Source: Dyadobacter sp. 676
GTDB taxonomy: Bacteria > Bacteroidota > Bacteroidia > Cytophagales > Spirosomataceae
DNA: 64,000 nt
Direction: 5' to 3'
NCBI RefSeq assembly: GCF_040448675.1
Contig: NZ_CP159289.1
Span: 1,302,001 to 1,366,000, forward strand
Position 1 is the first letter of the stretch. The number at the start of each line of letters is the position of its first letter. The position numbers and the translations under genes were made by a program. Shown here one piece after another: positions 1,454-32,555 of this stretch. The notes below the pieces were generated by a model, which saw only the letters and a list, made by a program, of their open reading frames with translations, was not told the origin of the DNA and did not search any database.

Positions 1454-1469
1454 CATGACGAAAGTCATG
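1454..1469. promoter_or_regulatory. Predicted Crp/Fnr-family operator upstream of hemN
   Basis: The sequence CATGACGAAAGTCATG is a perfect 6-4-6 palindrome. It contains TGA-N6-TCA half sites in exactly the Fnr/FixK geometry (compare TTGAT-N4-ATCAA). Its centre, 1461.5, lies about 41.5 bp upstream of the start point predicted from the -7 element at 1491-1498, the classic class II activator position. A Crp/Fnr-type regulator is encoded 3 kb downstream. The palindrome could also be a GAAA-loop hairpin ending the preceding transcript, because TTTT follows it. Binding is inferred. Confidence 0.55.
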
Positions 1470-1490
1470 TTTTCCGCTTCTGGTCCTGGG

Positions 1491-1498
1491 TAGTTTTG
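1491..1498 (+). promoter_or_regulatory. hemN promoter, -7 element
   Basis: TAGTTTTG fits the Bacteroidota -7 consensus TAnnTTTG exactly and lies 29 bases before the hemN ATG. No good TTTG -33 element is present at 19-21 bp upstream, which would fit a promoter that needs an activator. The element is also part of a 9-bp inverted repeat, AGTTTTGAT (1492-1500) and ATCAAAACT (1512-1520). Confidence 0.5.
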
Positions 1499-1527
1499 AT
1501 TCGTCAACTACATCAAAACTTTAACCG

Positions 1528-2892
1528 ATGGACAAGGACCTGTTATTCAAATACAACATTCCGGGGCCGCGCTATACCAGCTACCCGACCATCCCGTACT
1601 GGCAGAAAACCCCTCCGGCCATTCGCGATTGGAAAGAACTGGTACGGGACGCCTTCGCGGTTTCGAACCGGAGGGACGGGATCAGCCTTTACGTGCACCT
1701 GCCGTTCTGCGAGAGCCTGTGTACCTATTGCGGCTGCAACACGCGCATTACCGTCAACCACGCCGTTGAAACCAAATATATAGGGGCCGTTTTGAAGGAG
1801 TGGAAAATGTACTGCGAACTGTTCGGGACGGAAAAGCCCGTGATCCGGGAACTGCACCTCGGCGGAGGTACTCCCACGTTTTTCAACCCCGGCAATCTTG
1901 TTAAACTGGTCAAAGGTTTACTGGAAAATTCTTTGGTGCACACCGATGCCCGTTTTAGTTTCGAAGCACATCCCGGCAATACTACCGACGCGCATCTGGA
2001 AGCATTGTATTCCGTCGGTTTCCGCAGGATCAGCATCGGTGTTCAGGACTTTAACCCGGTAGTGCTGGCGATGATCAACCGGCGCCAGACTTTCGAACAG
2101 GTAAGGCACCTGACATTGAAAGCCCGCGAAATCGGCTACACGTCCATCAACTACGACATTGTATACGGCCTTCCGCAGCAGAAAAACTGCTCCATGATGC
2201 AGACTATGCTGCGCGTGATCCAGCTCCGTCCCGACCGCATCGCATTTTACAGCTACGCCCACGTGCCGTGGATCAAGCCCGGCCAAAGGAGCTATACCGA
2301 AAACGACCTGCCGGACGCCAACCACAAAATGGCGATCTACGAAACCGGCCGCAATGCACTGGAGCTGGCAGGTTACGAAGACATCGGCATGGATCATTTC
2401 GCCCTCAAAACCGACGGGCTCTACAAAGCCGCTACCGAAGCAAGCCTCCACCGGAATTTCATGGGCTACACCGACACCCGCACACAGTTGCTGATCGGGC
2501 TCGGCGCTTCGGCGATTTCCGACTCCTGGCGGGGTTATGTACAAAACGAGAAGAAAGTGGAGGGCTATTACAAACGGCTTGCCGCAAACGAGCTGCCCGT
2601 ATTTCGCGGCCATGAGCTGAGCCGCGAAGACCTGATCCTGAGAACGCACATTCTCCGGTTGATGACCCGCTTCGAAACTTCCTGGGCCGATACCCCGGAG
2701 GTTTGTATGGAACTGTACCAGGCCCTCGAACGGCTCTCCGAAATGGAACTCGACGGGCTCGTGGAACTGGGACCTTTCCGGCTTAGGATCACGGAGAAAG
2801 GCAGAACATTCGTGCGCAACGTGTGCATGGCGTTCGATGCCCGCCTGTGGGCCGACTTCCCCCAAACGACCCTTTTCAGCCAGACAGTTTAA
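1528..2892 (+). CDS. hemN: Oxygen-independent coproporphyrinogen III oxidase (radical SAM)
   Basis: This 454-aa protein is full length for HemN. It starts MDKDLLFKYNIPGPRYTSYP, a clear HemN amino terminus, and has the radical-SAM 4Fe-4S motif C61-x3-C65-x2-C68 followed by C70, then the SAM-binding GGGTPT near residue 113. The carboxy-terminal HemN domain (LRLMTRFE, then a small winged helix) is intact. HemN converts coproporphyrinogen III to protoporphyrinogen IX without oxygen. Its position after cbb3 genes and before a PAS kinase and an Fnr-type regulator fits haem supply under low oxygen. It is preceded by a predicted operator and promoter. Confidence 0.97.
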   Translation: MDKDLLFKYNIPGPRYTSYPTIPYWQKTPPAIRDWKELVRDAFAVSNRRDGISLYVHLPFCESLCTYCGCNTRITVNHAVETKYIGAVLKEWKMYCELFGTEKPVIRELHLGGGTPTFFNPGNLVKLVKGLLENSLVHTDARFSFEAHPGNTTDAHLEALYSVGFRRISIGVQDFNPVVLAMINRRQTFEQVRHLTLKAREIGYTSINYDIVYGLPQQKNCSMMQTMLRVIQLRPDRIAFYSYAHVPWIKPGQRSYTENDLPDANHKMAIYETGRNALELAGYEDIGMDHFALKTDGLYKAATEASLHRNFMGYTDTRTQLLIGLGASAISDSWRGYVQNEKKVEGYYKRLAANELPVFRGHELSREDLILRTHILRLMTRFETSWADTPEVCMELYQALERLSEMELDGLVELGPFRLRITEKGRTFVRNVCMAFDARLWADFPQTTLFSQTV

Positions 2893-2934
2893 CCATGAAT
2901 TCTTGCGGTGTTCACCTGTGTCCTGTACTTTGGT

Positions 2935-4206
2935 ATGTTTGATACGGATATTTTAATTCATACGCAGGTGATGACACGGCATATCGAAATGCTGGATGCC
3001 CTGTTCAAGCACGCGACCGAGGGGATCGTGGTGGTGGACAAACAGGCAAACATTGTAATGCTTAACCCAAAGGCAAAGGAGCTTTTCGGCTATACCGACC
3101 GGGAACTGATCGGTAAAAAAGTGGAGACGCTGATCCCGCAGCGGTTCAACCGAAACCATGTCGGATACCGCGACGAGTATCTCGAAGCGCCCCGCGCGCG
3201 CGGTATGGGCCACATGATGGACCTTTTTGCCCGGCGCAAGGATGGCACCGAATTCCCGGTCGAAGTGAGCCTAAGCCCCTTCACTACCAGCGATGGCGAA
3301 TTCGTCGTAAGTTTTGTGATCGACATTACCGAACGCAAAAAACAGGAGAGTCGCATTATCGAAGCCAATCTTGAAATACAAAAACTGAACGCGGAGCTGG
3401 AAGTGCGCGTGCAGCAGCGAACGGAAGAACTCGCCGCGGCCATCAAGCGCATCGAACAATCGCAAGAGGAAGTGGTACGCGCGCTGGCGAAGGAACGCGA
3501 GCTGAACAATATGAAAAGCCAGTTTGTGACAATCGCCTCTCACGAATTCCGTACGCCGCTCGCGACGATCCTGTCGTCGGCGTCGCTCATCGGTCGCTAT
3601 TCACGTACGGAAGACGAAGAAAAGCGCCGGAAACACGTGCAACGCATTAAATCTACTGTAACCAATCTTACCGAGATTCTGAACGACTTCCTGTCCATCG
3701 GCAAGCTGGAAGAAGGCCGCATCCATGCTATTCCGGTGCTGACCGACCTGAATGAATTTTCCAGGAACCTGATCGAAGAAATCAAAGGACTTTGCAAGGA
3801 AGGGCAGCAGTTGTTTTTTTCGTACGAGGGGGAAGCCGACGCGTGGCTCGACAAGCAATTGTTGCGCAACGTGCTTTTCAATCTTCTCTCGAATGCCATT
3901 AAGTATTCGGAACCTGGAAAATCGATTTTCCTGAGGCTTAAAAACCGGGGCGGGATGATCCGCATGGAAGTACAAGACCAGGGTATCGGTATCCCGCAAC
4001 AGGACCAGGACCATATTTTCGACCGCTTTTTCCGCGCGAACAACGCGGGCAACGCACAGGGGACCGGTCTGGGCCTGAATATCGTACAAAACTATATCGA
4101 ACTGATGGGCGGTACCGTACGCTTTCAGAGCGAACTGGGCGTTGGCACCACATTCTTTGTGGAGTTACCCAACCGCGAACCAGCATCTGTAAAAATCGAC
4201 GCCTGA
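2935..4206 (+). CDS. PAS-domain sensor histidine kinase, FixL-like arrangement
   Basis: Numbered from ATG 2935, the protein has 423 aa: a PAS domain (about 20-135), a coiled-coil linker (135-195), a HisKA domain with SHEFRTPL (H203), and HATPase_c with N box NLLSNAIKYS and G boxes DQGIGIP and GTGLGLNIV. No transmembrane segment is seen, so it is soluble. The PAS part has NRNHVGYRDEY followed by an FARRKDGTEFPVEV strand. The histidine (H75) lines up roughly with the haem ligand of FixL, but many haem-free PAS domains share this segment and the FixL distal arginine appears not to be conserved. A GTG at 2908 or ATG at 2971 could also start it. Its cognate regulator begins 17 bases downstream. 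Confidence 0.9.
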   Translation: MFDTDILIHTQVMTRHIEMLDALFKHATEGIVVVDKQANIVMLNPKAKELFGYTDRELIGKKVETLIPQRFNRNHVGYRDEYLEAPRARGMGHMMDLFARRKDGTEFPVEVSLSPFTTSDGEFVVSFVIDITERKKQESRIIEANLEIQKLNAELEVRVQQRTEELAAAIKRIEQSQEEVVRALAKERELNNMKSQFVTIASHEFRTPLATILSSASLIGRYSRTEDEEKRRKHVQRIKSTVTNLTEILNDFLSIGKLEEGRIHAIPVLTDLNEFSRNLIEEIKGLCKEGQQLFFSYEGEADAWLDKQLLRNVLFNLLSNAIKYSEPGKSIFLRLKNRGGMIRMEVQDQGIGIPQQDQDHIFDRFFRANNAGNAQGTGLGLNIVQNYIELMGGTVRFQSELGVGTTFFVELPNREPASVKIDA

Positions 4207-4223
4207 CCAAAACGGAATCAGAA

Positions 4224-5288
4224 TTGGAGACTAGAAAAATACTTTTGATCGAAGACAATCCCGAAATGCGGGAGAATACCGCCGAAATCCTCGAACTCGC
4301 CAACTACGAGGTGGTAACCGCCCGAAATGGCAAGGAAGGTGTGCAGATTGCTACCCAGCACCATCCCGATCTTATCATATGCGACATCATGATGCCGGAA
4401 CTCGACGGTTACGGCGTGCTGCATATGCTCGGAAAAGACGAGTGTACCGCCTCCATTCCATTCATTTTCCTTACGGCAAAGGCTGAAAAGGAGGATTATC
4501 GCAAAGGCATGACTATGGGCGCCGACGATTACCTTACCAAACCCTACGACGACGTGGAGCTGCTCAATGCCGTGGAAATGCGCCTCAAAAAGAGCGACCG
4601 ACTGAAAAAGCAGTTCGAACGTTCCGCCGAAGGCCTCGACCACTTTATCAGGGAAGCTCAGGCTTTCGACCCGATCATGAAACTGGCGGAAGACAAAAAG
4701 GTGAAAGTGCTGAAAAAAAAGGAGACCATTTACACGGAAGGCAGCTTTCCTTCTCACGTTTATTTTCTTCAGAAAGGAAAGGTAAAAGCCTACAAATCGA
4801 ATGAAAACGGCAAGGAATACATTACCGATCTGCTGAAAGAGGGTGAGTTTTTCGGCTATCTCGATCTGCTTCAGGGGGCAGCCTACGAAGAAACGGCGAT
4901 TGCACTCGAAAAGTCCGAAGTAGCGATGATCCCTAAAGACGATTTTTTCAACCTGCTTCAAGGCAACCGCGAGGTAGCTTCCAAGTTCATCCGCATGCTT
5001 TCCAACGAGATCAAGGAACGGGAGGAGCGACTGTTGCAGCTCGCTTACAACTCCGTCCGCAAACGCGTGGCGCAAGCGCTCGTGATGCTCGTACAGCGTT
5101 ATCAGGAAGACCGTTCGAAACCGTTTTCAATGGCCGTCACCCGCGAAGACATCGCGTCGATGGTAGGAACCGCTACCGAAACGGTGATCCGGACACTTTC
5201 CGACTTCAAGGACGAACGCCTCGTCGATATGAAGGGCAGCCAAATCACGGTTTTGGAATACGAAAAGCTGGCGCGAATGCGGAATTAG
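4224..5288 (+). CDS. Response regulator with receiver, cNMP-binding and Crp/Fnr HTH domains
   Basis: This 354-aa protein fuses an amino-terminal receiver (about 1-122; acidic E10/D11, phospho-acceptor D54, T85, K106) to a Crp-type beta-roll (about 155-250) and a Crp/Fnr winged helix (about 300-350) with the recognition helix TATETVIRTL. E319 and R323 occupy the positions that read the TGA core in Crp and Fnr. No cysteine cluster for an Fnr-type Fe-S centre is present, so oxygen sensing would be by the kinase. There is no usable ATG; the start is TTG at 4224, 17 bases after the kinase stop. It is the likely regulator for the hemN operator at 1454-1469. Confidence 0.92.
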   Translation: METRKILLIEDNPEMRENTAEILELANYEVVTARNGKEGVQIATQHHPDLIICDIMMPELDGYGVLHMLGKDECTASIPFIFLTAKAEKEDYRKGMTMGADDYLTKPYDDVELLNAVEMRLKKSDRLKKQFERSAEGLDHFIREAQAFDPIMKLAEDKKVKVLKKKETIYTEGSFPSHVYFLQKGKVKAYKSNENGKEYITDLLKEGEFFGYLDLLQGAAYEETAIALEKSEVAMIPKDDFFNLLQGNREVASKFIRMLSNEIKEREERLLQLAYNSVRKRVAQALVMLVQRYQEDRSKPFSMAVTREDIASMVGTATETVIRTLSDFKDERLVDMKGSQITVLEYEKLARMRN

Positions 5289-29792: not shown

Positions 29793-32555
29793 TTATTTTC
29801 CCGAAAGCGATTTGATAAACAGGATCACCGACTCGATATCATTGTCGGATAGCACGCCTACAAACGACGGCATTTCCTCATTGTAGCCTTTTACAATGCG
29901 TTTCGAAGGTGTCAGGATCGATTCGCGGAGATAGGCTTCGTCGGCGATTACCTTGCTGCCGTCGTCGAATGTACGCTCCGATTTGTACAGGTTCTGAAAA
30001 GGCGGACCGTACATACCTTTGGTACGGGTCCCTTCCGAATGACAGCCCGCGCATGCCATTTTCTGAAATATTTCCCGACCCTTTTCTGCCGAGGCCGCAG
30101 TTTCGGCAACCACCGCTGCCGGCTGTTCGGGGCGTTTGGCATTCAACAGGGCAAGGTCTACACCCCCGAAGCCGCTCAGATCCACGTCCGTCGATTGGTT
30201 TAAGGTAAACCAGAACTGGTCGTTCACCTTCTTGCCATCCGCCGCCTGCAACCGGTAACTTACCTCCATTTGCATTACCTCCGTCATTCCGGGGACGAGC
30301 AGGAACACGCTTCTTTTATCCTTCGACAGATAAGAAGCCGCTACGTGCATGACCTCCTGCCCCGTCGAGCCGTCGAGTTTGAAATGCCCTGAGCCATACT
30401 CTTCCGTGCGTTTGTAATTCCATCTCCTGACTTCGAAATTCCCCGGATTGGTAGCGGTTACCTTATCGAGCGGCGAATCGAACCGCAGCATAATGCCCTG
30501 CTTACCCGCGCGAAAATGGTTGGGCAGATAACTCGGCTTACCGGCATATCGCAGCCGCAGCAATGCGCTGATGCCATTCGAGCTGGACCCCCAGAGGTTA
30601 AAGCCGGCAATGTACAGCTGCCCATCCGCAGGGTTCATCGCTCCTTTCGAAGTCGGGGCGGGGTAATTGGCATGGATTACGGAAACACCGCCCTGAACGA
30701 CGCTCGTAGTGCTGTCGATCAGCACGCGGAAAAGCCCCGGACGGCCAAACGAGCAATGGATAAGATTTCCGTTCAAAGGCCCCATTTTCGAACCGGTGAT
30801 CCACACCTGGCTAATCGCCGAGCGGTCGACGCTGTGCGGGATCCAGGTCAATGGCGGGGTCACCGCCGGATTGTCGCTACGGTGCAACGTCGGTTCCACC
30901 CCGAAGTAATCGCCCTGGTGAATGACGAAAATAGGGGTCGACGGCACAAAGTTACCTTGCTGATCGGAAGCCGTCAGAATGCCTTTGGTAGGATGTATGC
31001 CAAGATAAGGCCCGCGTAATCCGGTCGCCACGACTTCCGCATTCCGTCCGTCCTTCGATATTCTGAGAATAGCACCATTCTGGTCCGAACCGGCCCGAAA
31101 ACCTTTGCCGGTGACTTTCGTCATGCCCGGCCCGTTACTCAAACTGCCGCCTTTGGCAATATAAAAACTGCCGTCGGGTGCGGTGACGAGATCGGCCGCC
31201 CATTCCCGCGACTCGGCCGACTGGGCCATAACATTGGAGAAATTTTCATAATAGTCCGCTACGCCGTCATTGTTCAGATCGCGTAAATGCACGATGCCGT
31301 TTCGGTCGAAAACGTAGATACTGTCCTTCACGATTTCAATGCTCATCGGCTCATGAAGTCCGGAAGCAAAACGCCGCCATTTAATACTCTGAAGGTTTTT
31401 GTCGATTCCCTCGATCGTCCAGACGTCGCCTTCAAAAGTTACCACCGCCGCCCGGCCATCCTCAAAAAAGCCCACATCCGCCACCCGCACATTCCTCTTC
31501 CACGGATTGTTCAAAGGCAATGTAAGCTGGTCGGTTACGAATGCTGCGGTATCAGGTGAGAGTTTTCCTTGTGTTACAACCGTTCCTTTCCACAATGCGG
31601 GGCCTCCGTTTTTGAAATCAGGGAGCGGGTTATGTTTTGTTTTGCAAAATTTCTCGAATGCCTTTTTGTCCTTCGAGAGCCCTTTCCAGATCGCCACAGT
31701 CGCTTCGCCATCTGCACCGACCTTCACCGTGAGATATTTGCCTTCCTCCACGCCGGACTGCCAAGCCGGTTTTCCCTTACCTAACACCGCCACAGCCGTA
31801 ACCGTATCCTTGTCGGCCCCCTGATATACATAAGCAATACGGCCCTTTACCTCGCTGCCTGTCGCATTATCGACCTCCGCCGCAGTCAGGTACAAGTCCG
31901 ACAAAACGCCGTTTGCACGAATGCTTCTCGTAAAAGCCACTCCGGCATCAAATCGGGCACTGCCGGGCATCTCGTAAATGTGGGCCTTGCCTACAGAATA
32001 GTCGAGTACCGAGCGGTTGCCGTAAACATACATCCCGTTATACCGCCCCTGGCTGGCAGGAAGCGGTTTCCAGGCAGGTGGCAGCGACTGATCCGTGCGA
32101 TAGGCGGGTTTGCCGGTTGTCCAGCCCGCGTAGGCGCCCGTCGCAAGCACGGGCGAGCCCGGTACCGTTGCTATATTATTGTTTTTATTAAAAAAATCCT
32201 TGTAGGAAACCTGGGCCATGAGTACCATCGGAAGGAATTTCCCCGTCCAGGCTACCGACCACCGCAGCAGGTCCGTGTCAAAGCAGGCATAGGCGCTGTC
32301 GCCCAGCTGCAACGCGAGCGTACGGGCCGCCTGATTATCTTTCGGAAATCCGCCGCCGAGCTTGCGGGCATCTACCGATGTTGAAATGTAGGGGAAGCCG
32401 GGTTCGACAAACGAGGCCAGTTGCAACGAATCGGGGCGGTCGGGTCTGGTACTGCGGGTATAGGTGTAGCCCGTCATCAGCACGGACGCCAGGGAAATAC
32501 CGCCCAGCAGGGCCGCCCCCCACCGCTTGCCGCGGTACTTGGAAATGTTAAGCAT
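29793..32555 (-). CDS. Large exported beta-propeller protein with carboxy-terminal cytochrome c domain
   Basis: This 920-aa protein starts with a membrane anchor or signal segment (KRWGAALLGGISLASVLMTG). The first half is DUF6797-like in style and the middle is a beta-propeller with repeated RDLNNDGVADYYENF and GPYLGIHPTKG units, typical of sugar-dehydrogenase-like propellers in Bacteroidota and Planctomycetes. The last 90 residues are a class I cytochrome c domain with CAGCHSEG and a later MPSF methionine ligand. A role in extracytoplasmic oxidation is likely, with a quinoprotein or partner unknown. It may accept electrons from the adjacent molybdenum hydroxylase, though the two genes are on opposite strands and convergent. 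Confidence 0.8.
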   Translation of the reverse strand: MLNISKYRGKRWGAALLGGISLASVLMTGYTYTRSTRPDRPDSLQLASFVEPGFPYISTSVDARKLGGGFPKDNQAARTLALQLGDSAYACFDTDLLRWSVAWTGKFLPMVLMAQVSYKDFFNKNNNIATVPGSPVLATGAYAGWTTGKPAYRTDQSLPPAWKPLPASQGRYNGMYVYGNRSVLDYSVGKAHIYEMPGSARFDAGVAFTRSIRANGVLSDLYLTAAEVDNATGSEVKGRIAYVYQGADKDTVTAVAVLGKGKPAWQSGVEEGKYLTVKVGADGEATVAIWKGLSKDKKAFEKFCKTKHNPLPDFKNGGPALWKGTVVTQGKLSPDTAAFVTDQLTLPLNNPWKRNVRVADVGFFEDGRAAVVTFEGDVWTIEGIDKNLQSIKWRRFASGLHEPMSIEIVKDSIYVFDRNGIVHLRDLNNDGVADYYENFSNVMAQSAESREWAADLVTAPDGSFYIAKGGSLSNGPGMTKVTGKGFRAGSDQNGAILRISKDGRNAEVVATGLRGPYLGIHPTKGILTASDQQGNFVPSTPIFVIHQGDYFGVEPTLHRSDNPAVTPPLTWIPHSVDRSAISQVWITGSKMGPLNGNLIHCSFGRPGLFRVLIDSTTSVVQGGVSVIHANYPAPTSKGAMNPADGQLYIAGFNLWGSSSNGISALLRLRYAGKPSYLPNHFRAGKQGIMLRFDSPLDKVTATNPGNFEVRRWNYKRTEEYGSGHFKLDGSTGQEVMHVAASYLSKDKRSVFLLVPGMTEVMQMEVSYRLQAADGKKVNDQFWFTLNQSTDVDLSGFGGVDLALLNAKRPEQPAAVVAETAASAEKGREIFQKMACAGCHSEGTRTKGMYGPPFQNLYKSERTFDDGSKVIADEAYLRESILTPSKRIVKGYNEEMPSFVGVLSDNDIESVILFIKSLSGK

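Follow-up and report, generated by a model that had tools for sequence, protein, structure and literature searches.

A receiver-fused FNR-type regulator beside cbb3 and haem genes of Dyadobacter, and a conserved palindrome-to-promoter spacing in Bacteroidia

Gene order and domain composition of the hemN locus

The window, a stretch of 64,000 nucleotides, lies inside the single 7.28 Mb contig that makes up the genome of Dyadobacter sp. 676; the genes given below with window coordinates are all on the forward strand, and the best relatives of the window's regulator in the named collection are from Dyadobacter. The cco genes lie 5′ of hemN, partly beyond the window, and comprise ccoI, ccoN (714 amino acids), a cytochrome c subunit, ccoG and ccoH, names that come from our reading of the open reading frames. 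A membrane protein of SafE/DsbD-like type, part of the cbb3 cluster (357–1049, PF13386), and a DsrE-like protein (1062–1439, with a match in just two of 80 related loci, L028 and L032) precede hemN itself (1528–2892), which encodes an oxygen-independent coproporphyrinogen III oxidase and scores 409.5 bits against TIGR00538 (cut-off 324.95). Downstream are a histidine kinase (2935–4206, with PAS, HisKA and HATPase_c domains) and a response regulator (4224–5288, with Response_reg, cNMP_binding and HTH_Crp_2 domains), which we term REC-FNR and of which the kinase is the probable partner. The kinase starts 15–42 bases past the hemN stop, a longer GTG start at 2908 being possible, and no separate copy of the palindromic site described below was seen upstream of it at this locus. 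It probably shares the hemN promoter, and together with hemN and the regulator gene it is likely to make up a single unit. The 80 related loci, found by regulator match, are not independent of one another, many being closely related. Of these, 28 have hemN and 34 have ccoN no more than 10 kb from the regulator.

The original prediction had outlined this arrangement, and its coordinates and sequence details (palindrome, promoter box, hemN, PAS kinase and regulator) proved correct on direct reading; its claim of a single protein uniting a receiver with a Crp/Fnr output, adjoining cbb3, maturation and haem genes, is borne out by the domain matches. The kinase contains a PAS domain (2986–3333), in which H75 (3157–3159) aligns with a FixL histidine, and a phospho-accepting histidine, H203 (3541–3543), that is invariant in 79 rows. 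The receiver of the regulator (4239–4577) is intact: E10, D11, the phospho-accepting D54 (4383–4385, 81 rows) and the K are invariant, and the T is present in 80 of 81 rows. With a kinase match upstream at 79 of the 80 loci, the protein fits a two-component response regulator. It is also a member of the Crp/Fnr superfamily, having a cNMP-binding-type beta-roll domain (4704–4964, PF00027) and a Crp-type helix-turn-helix (5061–5279, PF13545) above cut-off. Its best solved-structure match by sequence, over the output half, is the Crp/Fnr protein of PDB 2gau (E 3.7e-29), presumably from Porphyromonas gingivalis, whose chain of 232 residues lacks a receiver.

We compared the regulator with the FNR of PDB 5cvr/5e44 and the 9ql series, 'FNR type regulator' chains that we take to be from Aliivibrio fischeri. 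The two share the Crp/Fnr fold, the N4 palindrome, a class II-like position, and respiratory and haem targets. E319 and R323, which had been predicted to read the TGA of the site, are present in the recognition helix GTATETVIR and invariant in 81 rows, and the FNR-like helix is accompanied by an N4 palindrome, a putative operator, at one spacing in 23 of 28 hemN loci. However, the window's regulator does not have the cysteines of an oxygen-sensing FNR: a receiver replaces the FNR N-terminus, and the segment corresponding to C122 reads SEVAMIPK, with an alanine near the cysteine column.

Spacing between the palindrome and the promoter box

The palindrome CATGAC-GAAA-GTCATG upstream of hemN (1454–1469; CATGAC 1454–1459, GAAA 1460–1463, GTCATG 1464–1469; centre 1461.5) has the FNR form and is, on direct reading and from its conserved spacing, the probable hemN operator. 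It is followed by a −7 promoter box, TAGTTTTG (1491–1498), which we take to be of the TAnnTTTG type, and a NANNTTTG box stands at the equivalent place in relatives. The spacer between palindrome and TAGTTTTG contains neither TTTG nor TTG, in line with the proposed lack of a −33 box. If a −7 box starts at about −12, as we assume, a centre-to-box distance of 29.5 bases corresponds to about −41.5 and one of 52.5 to about −64, and the palindrome would occupy a class II-like position relative to the predicted hemN start point at 1503.

Taken by itself the palindrome is weak evidence, since TGACN4GTCA occurs at 76 places genome-wide versus 50 for a reversed control, an excess of only 1.5-fold. The window holds four copies versus 0.61 expected, the three besides that of hemN standing at 31112, 49630 and 59311; the copy at 31112 falls inside an open reading frame of 920 amino acids. 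Allowing a loose gap of 20–50 bases between palindrome and NANNTTTG box gave no excess either (5 versus 6 in the control), and we therefore rejected the palindrome as sole evidence. At exact distances, TGAYN4RTCA stands 22–24 bases before NANNTTTG at 18 places in this genome and 45–46 bases before it at three, versus none for the reversed control in either case, and over 48 genomes of the genus, rows summed, TGACN4GTCA-TANNTTTG at the exact distance was found at 92 places versus 3.

Orthologous hemN promoters had been named as the place where conservation of the palindrome should be seen, and there 23 of 28 related loci carry TGAYN4RTCA upstream of a −7-like box with a centre-to-box distance of exactly 29.5 bases, the number rising to 24 when the one mismatch of L057 is allowed; the site is absent at that spacing from L030, L061, L062 and L070. 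This constancy is not a by-product of overall similarity, since the distance from box to ATG varies from 19 to 67 bases among the 24 loci. Over all 80 regulator loci, which are not independent of one another, the spacing of TGAYN4RTCA to NANNTTTG peaks at 29.5 (61 cases), 51.5 (48) and 52.5 (20), against a background with a median of 1 and a mean of 2.2 per spacing, and four altered palindromes (14 to 44 sites, versus 590) gave no spacing peak over the same loci.

The longer spacings belong to a second arrangement. In this genome, ccoN and ccoI each have a full site at 52.5, centred 23 bases further up than that of hemN, plus a right half-site, GTCA, at 29.5. The suggested search of relatives for the site at ccoN was also positive, a full site at 29.5, 51.5 or 52.5 being found in 27 of 32 promoters, a count that omits two loci too near a contig end; the promoters without a full site at these spacings are those of L033, L057, L079, L096 and L099. 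One composite site precedes a protein that begins like glutamyl-tRNA reductase, hemA (TIGR01035, E 3e-12, 46 bits over the 59 residues scanned); such a short fragment would not be expected to reach the full-length cut-off, and it does not. Three composite sites lie inside longer open reading frames (L186, L191 and L192) and several others have no clear downstream gene, so that the site list of this genome includes false positives.

Two further sites are recorded as observations in their own right. The composite site TGACATAAGTCAC... at L126:1501 recurs in several Dyadobacter genomes and lies upstream of an apparent sulfide:quinone oxidoreductase, as read from the start of the protein. A palindrome-box site at L193:1501 (G000:C1:4686441), found also at L124 and L142, has no open reading frame of at least 80 amino acids within 420 bases downstream, and a search of L193 against Rfam gave no match.

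Receiver-fused and stand-alone FNR-type proteins in Bacteroidia

The REC-FNR circuit is class-wide in Bacteroidia. Full-length REC-FNR (E below 1e-60) was found in 143 of 295 genomes and ccoN in 168, with the regulator present in 105 of the 168 genomes having ccoN versus 38 of the 127 lacking it; given these 38, the regulator may have other duties as well. Six of 20 sampled genomes lacking the regulator have a stand-alone Crp/Fnr gene within about 10 kb upstream of ccoN, whose helix, GTATE(T/S)xIR, is nearly that of the regulator. These six and 20 further genes, less one row in the wrong frame (L278), gave a set of 25 stand-alone proteins. All 25 have the E and R of the helix and a cysteine at the C122 column of FNR, and 24 have an N-terminal CxxC; a cysteine at the C122 column is found in 5 of 24 regulators. 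One Bacteroidia stand-alone protein aligns with solved FNR over its CxxC and over the MVCEIP segment that holds C122, and the stand-alone form is probably an Fe-S protein. Because the closest stand-alone relatives found in Bacteroidia combine FNR-type cysteines with nearly the same helix, the circuit looks like FNR with its cysteine input swapped for a receiver. The regulator had been described as a one-protein FixJ-FixK equivalent; this is a fair analogy, but receiver-fused FNR is the better description.

A tree of both sets, 24 regulators with 25 stand-alone proteins, places the forms in separate clades (support 97/100); its root is uncertain because the sole outgroup row is very long. The regulator seems to be of old descent, with reciprocal retention, and not a recent fusion. 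Elsewhere in the Dyadobacter genome, at L021:2458-4414 (G000:C1, about 708.5–710.4 kb), the kinase-regulator pair occurs a second time in degraded form: its reading frames are broken, and a TGACCATTGTCA palindrome lies upstream.

The two forms are distributed in a complementary manner. At a stand-alone cut-off of 1e-48, the 168 ccoN genomes divide into 80 with REC-FNR only, 47 with the stand-alone form only, 25 with both and 16 with neither; at 1e-44 the corresponding numbers are 76, 55, 29 and 8. For this complementary presence the Fisher p is about 1e-10, without correction for kinship, and E-value cut-offs of this kind undercount genomes holding both forms; in each of the 15 genomes whose regulator match is weaker, a stand-alone FNR query also matches, at 2.1e-56 or better. 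By a count made by eye, at least eight families (f2, f4, f5, f7, f13, f24, f37 and f55) contain ccoN genomes of each single kind. Family f40 was removed from this group, as its regulator-only genome (G125) also has a match of stand-alone size at 1.2e-44.

Sites occur at 1.22 per Mb in genomes with the regulator versus 0.64 in those without (control 0.02–0.03), which is an association only. Among sampled ccoN promoters, a site at such a spacing is found in 13 of 20 from regulator-less genomes versus 10 of 20 from regulator genomes, the latter sample having ccoN on a different contig from the listed regulator match in 15 of 20 cases. Its ten misses comprise eight promoters where a palindrome is present but no box was recognised at such distances, and two that have no palindrome. 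We therefore rejected the notion that the site marks regulator genomes only. Together the comparisons suggest that REC-FNR and the cysteine-bearing stand-alone FNR replace each other in relatives while serving what would be the same DNA switch.

Proposed circuit and alternative explanations

From these observations we hypothesize that the PAS kinase, which is probably cytosolic, transfers phosphate to D54 of the response regulator, that the output half of the latter would be an FNR-type dimer minus the N-terminal cysteines of FNR, and that this dimer, once activated, binds TGAC-N4-GTCA. From the hemN site at about −41.5 it would contact RNA polymerase in place of a −33 box, in class II fashion; at ccoN and ccoI the full site near −64 would act together with the half-site near −41.5. 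When oxygen or electron flow drops, the regulon would increase haem synthesis (through hemN and probably hemA) along with the cbb3 oxidase and its maturation, and transcription from the hemN promoter would also raise the kinase and the regulator. Across Bacteroidia, REC-FNR and a stand-alone, probably Fe-S, FNR would be alternative readers of the same operator. We place the probability of this proposal as a whole, from PAS kinase to REC-FNR to TGAC-N4-GTCA regulon with stand-alone FNR as the alternative reader, at roughly 0.75. With less confidence, though still leaning in its favour, we extend it to two interchangeable readers, a cysteine FNR and a kinase-driven receiver-fused FNR, that are old sister clades and have replaced each other repeatedly without change to the cbb3 and haem operators or to their exact distance from the promoter; a short RNA ending in a terminator may, in Dyadobacter, be under the same code as well.

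The cue is likely redox or oxygen, judging from the targets. A narrower version, in which the PAS domain of the kinase is a haem-based direct oxygen sensor like that of FixL, seems doubtful to us. The PAS domain has as its best solved-structure match the PAS domain of another multi-sensor kinase (10jx), followed by those of FixL and DosP, and H75 was found, as predicted, in the column of the FixL histidine that we take to be its haem ligand, where it is kept in 70 of 79 partner kinase rows. A histidine at this position is, however, common in haem-free PAS domains, and residues vary (H, I, Q, S or K) in the column aligned with the regulatory arginine of FixL. Moreover, in ten hand-picked partner kinases the first recognised domain is PAS in seven and a receiver in three, so that a haem PAS is no constant component of the circuit; sensing of redox state, quinone or a cofactor is equally compatible with the data.

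That the palindrome is read by another Crp/Fnr protein of this genome, the kinase-regulator pair controlling something else, we consider improbable. The site does not in itself prove the regulator to be the binder, because regulator-less genomes also carry it at ccoN. A PF13545 search of this genome found seven places, four of them over cut-off (the regulator, its broken copy, a Crp protein with helix GTTRVVVSR and a hit that we read as GntR-like), with another Crp protein, of helix GMTPETISR, below it, and divergent sub-threshold ones may exist. Nevertheless, the helices of these two further Crp proteins (L110 and L114) are different ones, whereas that of the regulator nearly equals those of the stand-alone FNRs. 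No stand-alone FNR was recognised in this genome, the query giving one match, at E 7.5e-38 and with its place not listed, which is the level expected of the regulator, and the regulator's recurrent proximity to hemN and ccoN also argues for it as the reader. Still less credible, and already disfavoured by the spacing data, is a chance or general promoter pattern involving no regulator: the poor enrichment of the palindrome alone and the lack of any excess with a wide gap would be compatible with it, but not the exact-spacing peaks above a low background, the counts of 92 versus 3 in the genus and 18 versus 0 in this genome, or a site-to-box distance fixed at 29.5 while box-to-ATG varies.

The REC-FNR circuit can be set beside known systems. 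FixJ output is of the NarL type, and membership of that family requires a NarL/LuxR-type helix-turn-helix; the output of the regulator is Crp-type. It is likewise no FixK, its receiver being fused and its score against NCBIfam NF050806 being 70.5 bits for a cut-off of 300. In the account of Bradyrhizobium diazoefficiens excerpted from PMC6710368, FixL-FixJ-FixK2 is a two-component system with a Crp/Fnr output over cbb3 and hemN genes; FixK2 is there a protein distinct from FixJ, which induces its gene, and its box reads TTGA/C-N6-T/GCAA. On that description the window's system works like the cascade compressed into two proteins and, judged by its operators, like FNR, but with receiver and Crp/Fnr body in one protein and a TGAC-N4-GTCA box. 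The closest parallel to the exchange of REC-FNR and stand-alone FNR, as far as the excerpted text of PMC7888657 goes, is Rhizobium leguminosarum, where a two-component route (hFixL-FxkR-FixK) and an FNR-type sensor (FnrN) share control of fixNOQP, and some rhizobia keep just one of the two; in contrast to REC-FNR, rhizobial FixK is separate, and that text describes no receiver-FNR fusion. CRP/FNR homologues of Flavobacteriales and Saprospiraceae assemblies are assigned to MalR-like carbon sensing in the portion of PMC8510549 concerned, which is a different reading, of other Bacteroidota members of the family. Open-licence PMC text, under the terms searched, yielded no description of a fused regulator over cbb3 in Bacteroidota.

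If the proposed circuit is correct, the cbb3 and haem genes of a large class gain an operator, a promoter geometry and a regulator that can be tested, and the class offers a natural experiment on exchanging the input of a regulator, cysteine cluster or phosphorylation, with the operators unchanged. One could also predict from it, genome by genome, whether oxygen is sensed directly or through a kinase.

An FNR-type palindrome and box at L188:1501-1609 (G000:C1:1254809-1254917) are followed by a stretch of about 65 bases with a terminator hairpin at its end, an element conserved in eight Dyadobacter genomes and possibly a low-oxygen small RNA. The eight loci gave no Rfam match up to E 0.1. A model built from their alignment and searched against 150 sampled genomes, which omit most of the eight source genomes, gave 24 family matches, with the composite promoter present at its own locus only; most of the other matches look like other terminators. 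The element is a candidate only, because ACTCAACGTT, the word at its centre, is found at other places in the genus too. Another word, TACTCAACGTTR after TTTG, also recurs in Dyadobacter, with matches in 31 of 48 genomes versus 2 of 48 for a control. It may represent an RNA family or a repeated element; at L240, L243, L245, L251, L259 and L260 we read it as being followed by an apparent terminator hairpin.
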